This document shows positions 2,697 to 60,144 of a stretch of 64,000 bases of DNA, piece after piece. The first letter of the stretch is position 1. Each line of letters opens with the position of its first letter. Position numbers and translations under genes: made by a program. The stretch lies in NCBI RefSeq assembly GCF_900104615.1, contig NZ_LT629939.1:283616-347615 (forward strand). The letters run 5' to 3'. A model generated the notes under the pieces. It saw only the letters and a list, made by a program, of their open reading frames with translations. It made no database searches and was not told the DNA's origin. The stretch comes from Merdimmobilis hominis. GTDB taxonomy: Bacteria > Bacillota > Clostridia > Oscillospirales > Ruminococcaceae.

Positions 2697-3062
2697 TTAG
2701 CCCTTACCCTGCAGCACCCCTTGATTTTCCTCCAAACGGACGACGACCATAGAGATAAACGCCGCATTGCTCGGCCGTATAATAACATTGTATTCAAAAA
2801 ATTTGTTGTACCGGCTTTCCTGGCCTTCGCACAAACGGCGGTCCATCTGCCAGGATTTATCGATGATCGTGCGAATGTTCCGCTCTACACTCCATGGAGT
2901 GACGTGGTATTTCTTTGCCAGCTCAGGGTATACCACTTTGGTGATCTGGGTTAAGTACTCCGAGTGCTCCCGGCAAAGCTGTATAGCATCCTCTAGATAG
3001 GAATAACCTTTGTATTTTGGAAGCATCCGAAAGTAATTGAGGACTTCTTTGATTTCGTTCAT
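2697..3062 (-). CDS. stand-alone Spo0A C-terminal-type DNA-binding protein
   Basis: A 121-residue protein that aligns along its whole length with the DNA-binding half of the Spo0A encoded at 59371-60144. Shared blocks are GY.YL..AI, TK..YP..AKK, the recognition-helix segment VER.IR..I...W, and the tail P.N..FI.M. There is no receiver domain, so it cannot be phosphorylated like Spo0A. ATG 3062 is preferred to the GTG two codons upstream because GGGGAG lies seven bases before it. The gene is monocistronic, convergent with the small gene at 2136, and downstream of a PdaB-like sporulation deacetylase on the same strand. A 0A-type box lies upstream. Expected role: a sequence-specific regulator that reads 0A-like sites; whether it activates or competes is unknown. 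Confidence 0.82.
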   Translation of the reverse strand: MNEIKEVLNYFRMLPKYKGYSYLEDAIQLCREHSEYLTQITKVVYPELAKKYHVTPWSVERNIRTIIDKSWQMDRRLCEGQESRYNKFFEYNVIIRPSNAAFISMVVVRLEENQGVLQGKG

Positions 3063-3089
3063 CCGCACTCTCCCCTTTTTTCTAAAGAG

Positions 3090-3154
3090 ATTATACGATG
3101 AACGAAACGAGAAATGTTCTTATTGACATTAATCGACGAATTGAAATTTCGACA
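3090..3154 (-). promoter_or_regulatory. promoter region with 0A-type boxes upstream of the Spo0A-like gene
   Basis: On the minus strand TATAAT lies at 3095-3090, about 30 bases before the start at 3062, with no recognisable -35 hexamer. Further upstream TGTCGAAA (3154-3147) matches the Spo0A box core TGTCGAA exactly, and TCGACGAA (3133-3140, plus strand) matches TTGNCGAA in all but one base. A good -10 without -35 plus upstream boxes suggests activator-dependent transcription by Spo0A or by the product itself. Confidence 0.5.
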
Positions 3155-3212: not shown

Positions 3213-4034
3213 CTAATTTCTCCCCTTTTCCGGTTGGAAGGAGGGGGTTTCCCCCGAATCCGGCGCCTTTGGGAGGGGGTGCTGCCTTCCCTGGACATCC
3301 ATTTCGTAGTTGTCCCAATAGATCATTTCTGACACCGGCAGGATGGTATACCCCTCCCCTTTCAGGTATTCTATGACTCGCGGCAAGGCTTCTGCCGTAT
3401 GCTTTGCCCCCGAGTGGAAGAGGGTAATCGACCCCGGCCCCGCCTTTTTCTCCACCTTGTTGCAGATTTCGTCGGCGGTGTATCCCTTCCAGTCAATGGA
3501 ATCGCAGTCCCATTGAATCACCTCATAACCAAGGCCCCGGGCGGTCTCCACCAACAAGTCGTTGTAGGCGCCAGAAGGGGCTCGGAACAGCTTGGGCCGG
3601 GTCCCGGTGATCTTCTCCACCTTATCCGATGCATTCTCAATCTCTTCCACAATTCCCGCCCGGTCCAGTTTGGTCATATCCTTATGCCGGTCAGAGTGGT
3701 TGCCAATCTCGTGGCCCGCATCCCCAATGGCTTTGACCGATTCGGGGTATTTGTCACACCACTGCCCCACCACAAAAAAAGTGGCCTTTACACCAGCCTT
3801 ATCCAGAATATCCAGCAGCTGAGGGATGTCGGCGTTGTCCCAAGCACAGTTGATCCCCAGAGAGATGGTCTTTCCCTCCCGCTCCACCGAGTAGATAGGC
3901 AGCTGCCGTTTGGATGCGGCCGTTGCCTGTACGCCCCGGAAAAAGTTTCCTCCTAAAAACAGCACCGCCAATATCACCCCAATCAAGGCGAGCATCCGGG
4001 CACTTTCCCGGCGGCCGATCACCCAAATCCGCAT
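3213..4034 (-). CDS. PdaB-like polysaccharide deacetylase (sporulation)
   Basis: A 273-residue membrane-anchored NodB-fold deacetylase. The start is ATG 4034, with GGGGGAGG just upstream; the frame is open 18 codons further but without a ribosome site. An N-terminal transmembrane segment (LALIGVILAVLFLGGNF) places the enzyme outside the membrane. NodB motifs follow: INCAWDNAD where most family members have TFDDG, HSDRH metal ligands, RAPSGAYN, DCDSIDW and LFHSG. The AWDN form of motif 1 is the pattern I know from PdaB, needed for spore cortex stability in Bacillus, rather than from active chitin or xylan deacetylases. A proline-rich C-terminal tail of about 30 residues is extra. Confidence 0.8.
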   Translation of the reverse strand: MRIWVIGRRESARMLALIGVILAVLFLGGNFFRGVQATAASKRQLPIYSVEREGKTISLGINCAWDNADIPQLLDILDKAGVKATFFVVGQWCDKYPESVKAIGDAGHEIGNHSDRHKDMTKLDRAGIVEEIENASDKVEKITGTRPKLFRAPSGAYNDLLVETARGLGYEVIQWDCDSIDWKGYTADEICNKVEKKAGPGSITLFHSGAKHTAEALPRVIEYLKGEGYTILPVSEMIYWDNYEMDVQGRQHPLPKAPDSGETPSFQPEKGRN

Positions 4035-4190
4035 AGAACCTCCCCCTTTCCCTTTGAAAAAACAATATGCCTTGGGGGATTCTTTCATGAATGATCTCGA
4101 AGAATTTTAGATAATTCGACCGATATCGCAGTGGAAAACTAGGATTCTCTTCTCATATTTCCGAAAAATTTAGAAACCAAGGCCGTGGAA

Positions 4191-59370: not shown

Positions 59371-60144
59371 TTAGCTGATTTTGAGGCGCAGGCGCAGCTT
59401 ATCGGCGATCATCGCGATGAATTCGCTGTTGGTTGGCTTCCCTCTGCCGTTGTGGATGGTATACCCGAAGTAGGAGTTGAGGATGTCCACATCCCCGCGG
59501 TCCCAGGCGACTTCAATGGCGTGGCGGATGGCCCGCTCCACCCGGGAAGAGGTGGTGCCAAATTTTTTGGCTACAGTGGGGTACAGCTGTTTGGTCACCG
59601 AGTTAATGATGTCGGCGTTGTTCACTGCCAACAGGATGGATTCCCGCAGGTAATGGTAGCCTTTGATGTGGGCGGGCACCCCGATTTGATGGATGATCTC
59701 AGTCACCATCATTTCCAGGTCGGGCTGGAGTTTACCAGCGCCGGGCAGGTCTAGGATGTCCGCTTTTTTGTACCCGGAGATCTGGACAATCCGCTCCACC
59801 AGCACGTCGGTGTCAAAGGGTTTGAGGAAGTAGTAAGAGGCGCCGGAGTTGAGCAGTTCCCGCTCCAGGACTGGGTTGTCGAAGGTGGACATCATCATGA
59901 ACAAGGGCTGGACTGAAATTTGGGATTCGCGGATGGTTTTCATCACGCCGATGGCATCCAGCCGAGGCATGAACACATCCAAAAGGACAATATTCGGCTG
60001 ATTTTCTTCCACCAGCTCCACAACACGGAATCCATCCTTTGGGGCCACGACCGTCTCATAGCCATAGGTCCGAAGGAGTGCAGAGCATTGGGCGCAAAAC
60101 TCTTTGTTGTCATCTGCGATGAGGACCTTGATTTTGTTTGTCAT
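59371..60144 (-). CDS. spo0A: sporulation master regulator Spo0A
   Basis: 257 residues. The receiver domain spans about 1-125, with acidic pocket Asp11/Asp12, phosphorylation site Asp56 ([10 protein letters not shown]), Ser86/Thr87 and Lys108 (FLKPFD). The DNA-binding domain spans about 145-257, with the recognition region [18 protein letters not shown] and the C-terminal [16 protein letters not shown]. Phosphorylated Spo0A binds TGTCGAA boxes and starts sporulation. GAGGTG lies before the ATG. It follows spoIVB, the gene order kept in endospore formers. Confidence 0.97.

Follow-up and report, generated by a model that had tools for sequence, protein, structure and literature searches.

What does a bacterium that encodes Spo0A do with a second gene for the DNA-binding domain of Spo0A alone, and might that gene itself answer to Spo0A? 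These questions are raised by the 64,000-nucleotide stretch of Merdimmobilis hominis DNA analysed here (the window), in which such a gene lies 56 kb from the true spo0A:

2697..3062, minus strand: receiver-less Spo0A_C gene, 121 amino acids (open reading frame list, Pfam, NCBIfam, AlphaFold, Foldseek)
3213..4088, minus strand: PdaB-like polysaccharide deacetylase (open reading frame; Pfam Polysacc_deac_1, 1.4e-33; TIGR02764, 208.2 bits, cut-off 237.4)
59371..60144, minus strand: true spo0A, 257 amino acids (the genome's best Spo0A_C match, 156.8 bits)

The window gene runs on the minus strand from an ATG at 3062 to the end of its stop codon at 2697; the frame in the open reading frame list starts at a GTG at 3068 and encodes 123 amino acids. 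The deacetylase gene lies immediately upstream on the same strand. In the preliminary description it was called PdaB-type, and it is indeed PdaB-like, but it scores below the PdaB cut-off. Pfam scans of 13 neighbour representatives (from 40 clusters) showed no deacetylase next to a relative of the window gene. By eye, the surrounding reading frames look metabolic or otherwise like ordinary chromosomal genes, and a 413-amino-acid reading frame beside spo0A is, judging by its sequence, presumably SpoIVB.

The window protein had been described as the full DNA-binding half of Spo0A without a receiver, and our searches confirm this. The Spo0A_C model (PF08769) aligns over positions 1-103 of 104 (E = 3e-25; 88.6 bits, cut-off 25) and is the sole domain, with no Pfam match to a receiver. 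Similarly, the NCBIfam Spo0A model TIGR02875 aligns only over positions 151-257 of 262 and scores 75.4 bits (cut-off 200). Since the open frame begins merely 19 codons upstream of the ATG, no receiver is fused to the protein. A structure prediction, suggested at the outset as a check, gave a confident AlphaFold model with seven helices (pLDDT 93, pTM 0.86). Foldseek matched this model to seven PDB chains at E < 0.001, all of them the Spo0A C domain, free or DNA-bound (1FC3 and 1LQ1), with TM-scores of 0.69-0.77 by query length (best TM 0.77, rmsd 1.8). Overall, the window protein is a full-length member of the Spo0A_C family (PF08769) and has the same predicted fold.

We compared the window protein residue by residue with Spo0A, beginning with the recognition helix:

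2868..2888, minus strand: recognition-helix signature VERNIRT, VERAIRH in Spo0A (sequence, residue table)

The recognition helix claimed earlier is present, but it is not a plain Spo0A helix, reading WSVERNIRT against SRVERAIRH. The window protein shares with Spo0A the full-length domain, the predicted fold and residues E213, R214 and R217 (B. subtilis numbering). It differs in lacking a receiver, in carrying VERNIRT rather than VERAIRH, in R211S, in an insertion of about six residues near 227-240 and in D258V, and is further changed by S210W, A215N, H218T, E221D and R226M. In the recognition helix, whose comparison with Spo0A bears on another of the suggested checks, E213, R214 and R217 are kept and S210, R211, A215 and H218 altered. 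We take the base contacts in 1LQ1 to be made by helix residues including R211, E213 and R214, and the sigma (sigma A) contacts of Spo0A to map to 227-240 and 257-260.

Constancy was measured over 63 non-redundant Spo0A rows, chosen by VERAIRH from 72 rows with more than 100 residues before the domain (a count that predates further duplicate removal); constancy at 213-218 is by construction because of that choice, while that of S210, R211, E221, R226 and D258 is untouched by it. S210 and R211, both altered in the window protein, are constant in 100% and 98% of these rows. Half of the positions constant in at least 97% of rows, 21 of 42, are unchanged in the window protein: 6 of 11 in region 166-195, 9 of 15 in 196-221 and 6 of 16 in 222-260. 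It does retain F236 and Y238, unlike most VERN-type relatives. Position 257 is A in 65% of the Spo0A rows, S in 17%, T in 16% and V in 2%, and the window protein reads V257 followed by V258. In passages of one paper, A257V in B. subtilis is cited as losing activation of sporulation with abrB repression retained, and P. polymyxa with A257V still forms spores (PMC9195935). Because position 257 tolerates change and P. polymyxa A257V keeps its spores, V257 is weak evidence.

Upstream of the window gene we identified the following elements:

3070..3075, minus strand: ribosome-binding site GGGGAG, 7 nt upstream of the ATG (read from the sequence)
3090..3095, minus strand: perfect -10 element TATAAT (best -35: 5 of 6 mismatches)
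3134..3140, plus strand: degenerate 0A-like site CGACGAA (one mismatch to TGNCGAA, two to TGTCGAA)
3148..3154, minus strand: perfect 0A box TGTCGAA (sequence; enrichment among relatives)

The good -10, missing -35 and perfect TGTCGAA of the preliminary description were all recovered, and a consensus scan found no two-hexamer promoter on the gene's strand. The second box, said to carry a single mismatch, does so against TGNCGAA but has two mismatches to TGTCGAA. The perfect box is centred 88.5 nt (about 89) upstream of the ATG, at about -68 from the inferred +1, in the same orientation as the gene, which is also the more frequent one among the relatives, and with no partner TGTCG core at 10 bp. 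Taken alone it is weak evidence, TGTCGAA occurring four times in the window against 5.2 expected and in 5.7% of shuffles of the 150-bp intergenic stretch; its strength comes from the relatives of the gene.

Single-domain Spo0A_C proteins, for which a database search had been proposed, proved common. Among 41 genomes (the genome itself, the same family and the same order), 37 have a Spo0A_C match, seven, the genome itself included, have a near-whole single-domain frame of 117-193 amino acids (G000, G018, G019, G021, G024, G030 and G037), and two further ones have a partial frame of 97-100 amino acids (G010 and G017), a contig-edge fragment in G034 being left out of the count. All nine of these also hold a Spo0A-grade match. 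Scanning genome_contigs with the motif [ASC]VERNIRT[IV] returned 132 relatives, the best 80 of which were kept; their titles name Lachnospiraceae, Oscillospiraceae and other Clostridia or Firmicutes, and some read ‘uncultured bacterium’. Two scans of viral contigs added 12 loci, 11 with a domain row. Of the resulting 98 domain rows, 88 belong to ERNIR genes whose open frame extends fewer than 100 residues ahead of the domain, corresponding to the 96 loci of the neighbour clustering minus eight added by hand. The constancy of E213, R214, N215, I216, R217 and T218 in L133-L212 is by construction, these loci having been chosen with the motif. N215, and mostly also T218, recurs in ten further VERN[IL]R proteins, the window's not counted, that came up in HMM or profile searches made independently of the pattern. 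A Spo0A-length frame (264-324 amino acids, at least 152 bits) was present in all 14 carrier genomes tested from the 80 loci kept. Receiver-less proteins with a VERNIRT helix are widespread in Clostridia.

We then asked which short motifs precede these genes. In the 250 bp upstream of 79 non-redundant genes (87 upstreams before deduplication, the window's included), the top 7-mer is TGTCGAA, with 31 sites at 24 genes. The same 7-mer precedes 18 of 521 other reading frames at the same loci (Fisher p = 1.5e-12, kinship ignored), and because some of these control upstreams are operon-internal, shuffles served as a second control, giving 2.1 expected sites and a maximum of 6 in 100 shuffles. As a positive control, TGTCGAA lies upstream of spo0A itself in 24 of 62 cases; the box rate at receiver-less genes is near that of spo0A. 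In sets assembled independently of the pattern, the box precedes 5 of 10 VERN-type stand-alone genes (the window gene included; L044 and L083 are apparently loci that the pattern set contains as well), as against 1 of 12 other stand-alone genes, with fragments and frames truncated or broken by stops (L008, L085-L089, L105 and L120) left out of the count. Moreover, newly fetched, motif-independent and previously unused upstreams (20 minus five duplicates of loci already used) carry it in 4 of 15 cases (p = 0.002), at one of four VERN genes and three of eleven others, with a VERDIRT helix at three of the four. The other enriched upstream k-mers, GTACAA, GAAAACA, AAATATG and ACCTGGTA, are weaker, none being enriched like TGTCGAA, and in one clade ACCTGGTA falls within the final part of an adjacent gene. 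As the top upstream 7-mer with a motif-independent replicate, TGTCGAA lends real support to the earlier idea of a receiver-less factor under Spo0A-type control; the earlier interpretation as a whole is partly supported.

The placement of the boxes is also regular. In ranges picked post hoc, 26 of 31 sites lie 60-130 nt before the start codon, and 14 of 31 are plus-strand boxes 70-100 nt from it (p = 1.6e-9). TGTCG cores form 22 pairs within 35 bp, of which 12 are spaced at exactly 10 bp, five at 20, one at 30 and four elsewhere; the 12 pairs at 10 bp comprise five in ++, two in -- and five in inverted arrangement, with 0.01-0.02 expected for each. All five loci with the inverted pair TTCGACA-N5-TGTCGAA (L142, L158, L180, L187 and L203) belong to one Lachnospiraceae clade; at spo0A, pairs are direct and we saw no inverted 10-bp pair. 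The flanks of the boxes are similar to those in spo0A promoters and share with them a TG some 10 bp further along, with the base before the box more commonly A at receiver-less genes (15 of 31) and T at spo0A (13 of 30). For 18 boxes followed by a -10 with at most one mismatch, the distance to the -10 is 41-61 nt in 12 cases and 13-28 nt in six, values that are descriptive since the -10 was searched for. In passages on C. difficile, spo0A is described as a direct Spo0A target, 0A boxes are placed at -75 and -78 at spo0A and sigH, and the isolated Spo0A domain binds TGTCGAA DNA and is said to do so without phosphorylation (PMC3485338).

Some relatives carry additional parts. A helix-turn-helix (HTH) gene clusters near 22 of 96 loci; by a stricter test it lies close upstream at 10 of 77, and none of these ten loci has a 0A box of its own (p = 0.026). 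At L163 (5713-6324), about 95 residues that look HTH-like by eye, with no Pfam HTH match, are fused to a VERNIRT Spo0A_C domain, and this fusion together with the separate upstream HTH gene elsewhere may represent a two-part regulator. At L063, L135, L189 and L210, a VERNIRT Spo0A_C domain follows an N-terminal part of about 130 amino acids, in which neither Pfam nor a PDB sequence search found a receiver; this part is possibly a decayed receiver. AlphaFold, with only three alignment rows, modelled L189 at a pLDDT of 53.5, its N-terminal part mostly below 50, a quality too low for a verdict on that part.

Does the window gene descend from the same source as these relatives? Its protein's best matches among 152 domains score 61 bits, to L135 (VERNIRT with the long N-terminus) and L133 (stand-alone). 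In quick trees of 152 and 45 rows it sits on a long branch between Spo0A, the long-N-terminus VERN group and the stand-alone VERN genes, and one quick tree joins it to the long-N-terminus group with a support of 79. AU tests gave 0.76 for joining it with the stand-alone VERN genes and likewise 0.76 for joining it with Spo0A, rejecting neither. We found no orthologue in the genus, where the search covered its own genome, none in close-relative scans of genome_contigs and viral_contigs and, among the matches listed for 247 family genomes, nothing above 45% identity but the window protein itself. The best motif-scan segments match it at 50% identity across only 58 residues. Like the VERNIRT-type stand-alone genes (within L129-L219), the window gene encodes a single domain with a VERN[IL]RT helix and has a 0A box in the same place; it differs from them in a more Spo0A-like C-terminal half, in having no HTH gene just upstream and in not nesting among them in the quick trees. 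The window gene thus shares the helix and promoter feature of the stand-alone VERN genes but not necessarily their descent.

We tentatively favour a model, short of even confidence, in which the window gene encodes a Spo0A-controlled paralogue that binds DNA independently of phosphorylation and, at 0A-like sites, most likely competes or represses. As Spo0A~P accumulates, it would bind the 0A box near -68 and activate the promoter, with its good -10 and no -35. The paralogue, free of restraint by a receiver, would bind DNA without phosphorylation and occupy 0A-like sites, trimming or delaying part of the Spo0A response. Domain content, predicted fold, the box itself and its enrichment before such genes are observations; we infer reading of the box by the host's Spo0A, activation instead of repression of the gene, and competition by its product at 0A-like sites. 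Host Spo0A is the most economical reader, given that motif and spacing are shared and that Spo0A co-occurs with these genes; the box upstream of a -10 that lacks a -35 suggests activation; and competition or repression is favoured by changes, outside the DNA-reading core, at residues that Spo0A almost always conserves.

Several observations pull against this model: with S210, R211, A215 and H218 altered, the window protein possibly does not read TGTCGAA; a perfect box precedes only 24 of 79 genes; and the window's own box lacks a 10-bp partner core in a gene for which no orthologue was found. The box might also be read by the window protein itself, as autoregulation, a possibility to which the inverted pair in one clade and the A rather than T before the box both point. 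Nearly as likely as the competitor or repressor is a regulator that Spo0A controls and that serves a separate gene set; its changed helix would read a different site and so relay the Spo0A signal to other genes. That the near-constant S210 and R211 are altered, and that A-to-N and mostly H-to-T recur in the ten proteins found without the motif, would fit such a regulator; the retention of E213, R214 and R217, and the lack of any k-mer upstream of the relatives that rivals TGTCGAA, speak against it.

Behind these two stand a remnant and a feed-forward activator, both improbable in our view and the latter by a shade the more so. A paralogue of little function, left by a phage or a duplication, would account for the missing orthologue and the long branch, and receiver-less Spo0A_C domains do occur in viral contigs and in phages as described in passages of PMC10294663. 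Such a by-product of a mobile element is harder to reconcile with an intact frame, a ribosome-binding site, a -10, a box placed as in the relatives and neighbours that look like ordinary chromosomal genes. A feed-forward activator would bind 0A boxes and activate the same promoters phosphate-free, locking in the Spo0A response; F236 and Y238, in a region that we take to contact sigma A, are kept, which counts in its favour, but D258, E221 and R226 are altered, about six residues are added at 227-240, and the usual dimerisation is absent without a receiver. Antagonist, feed-forward activator and regulator of a separate gene set had all been offered at the outset, and the sequence does not separate them, though D258V, E221D and R226M disfavour a straightforward activator and the helix changes keep a separate gene set well alive.

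Receiver-less Spo0A homologues have a precedent in phages, truncated forms being described in passages of ‘Human-Gut Phages Harbor Sporulation Genes’ (mBio 2023; PMC10294663). Like them, the window protein is an effector domain without a receiver; unlike theirs, its gene belongs to a bacterial chromosome and is preceded by a 0A box, and 0A boxes go unmentioned in those passages. The window protein matches the PHROG family phrog_24603 at 4e-19 and the Spo0A-length phrog_37855 at 6e-18. Because a neighbour cluster represented by a phage holin was found at five relative loci, part of the VERNIRT group is probably prophage-borne. Four viral-contig loci (L213, L215, L216 and L217) are VERNIRT stand-alones that lie close to holin and NlpC/P60-like genes in putative prophages; three of them are on contigs with one common source number. 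Phage origin was also pursued through 13 phage records that had the look of stand-alone homologues, seven of which were examined (L121-L127) and have frames of 253-292 amino acids with the domain at the end; these do not support it because the frames are long enough for a whole Spo0A. The ‘Bacteriophage sp.’ records with Spo0A-length frames, MT835504, MT835715, MT835718, MT835737, MT835781, MT836727 and MT837510, may be bacterial fragments or prophage neighbours. In the literature covered, to which subscription papers mostly do not belong, we found no account of a chromosomal receiver-less Spo0A or of 0A boxes before one; within that limited coverage, receiver-less Spo0A is known from phages, and chromosomal genes bearing 0A boxes are apparently unreported.

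We know of no such receiver-less control layer in the B. subtilis model of sporulation. Should these proteins prove to bind 0A boxes, the control of sporulation in such Clostridia would include a layer missing from that model, and the truncated phage Spo0As would have a counterpart on chromosomes; the enrichment of 0A boxes opens this reading to direct test. A broader and rather unlikely extension is that Clostridia have widespread, overlooked regulators made of a Spo0A domain without a receiver, which are part of the Spo0A regulon and act back on it by occupying 0A boxes, natural dominant-negative Spo0As that would tune the timing or decision of sporulation and be exchanged with phages.

Passages of a published survey treat the Spo0A_C domain as the mark separating Spo0A from other response regulators (PMC6136694); the eight Spo0A_C matches of this single genome contrast with that use. 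Seven of the eight places lie above the cut-off: Spo0A, the window gene, L004 (with a confirmed receiver) and L003, L005, L006 and L007, followed by the truncated, sub-cut-off L008. L003, L005, L006 and L007 are four short stand-alone Spo0A_C proteins with the helix TRSIAR or nearly so, in which E213 and R217 are replaced, and no perfect 0A box lies upstream of any of them. Their best match outside the genome, among 244 family genomes, scores 67 bits, and they appear to be a genome-specific expansion. L004 (receiver plus Spo0A_C; L092 12945-15832, contig C3 at about 165.4-168.3 kb) abuts a same-strand AgrB gene (PF04647, 5e-29) and also lies beside a gene for a GHKL-domain membrane kinase (PF14501); the locus appears to be of the Agr type, its output domain being like that of Spo0A.
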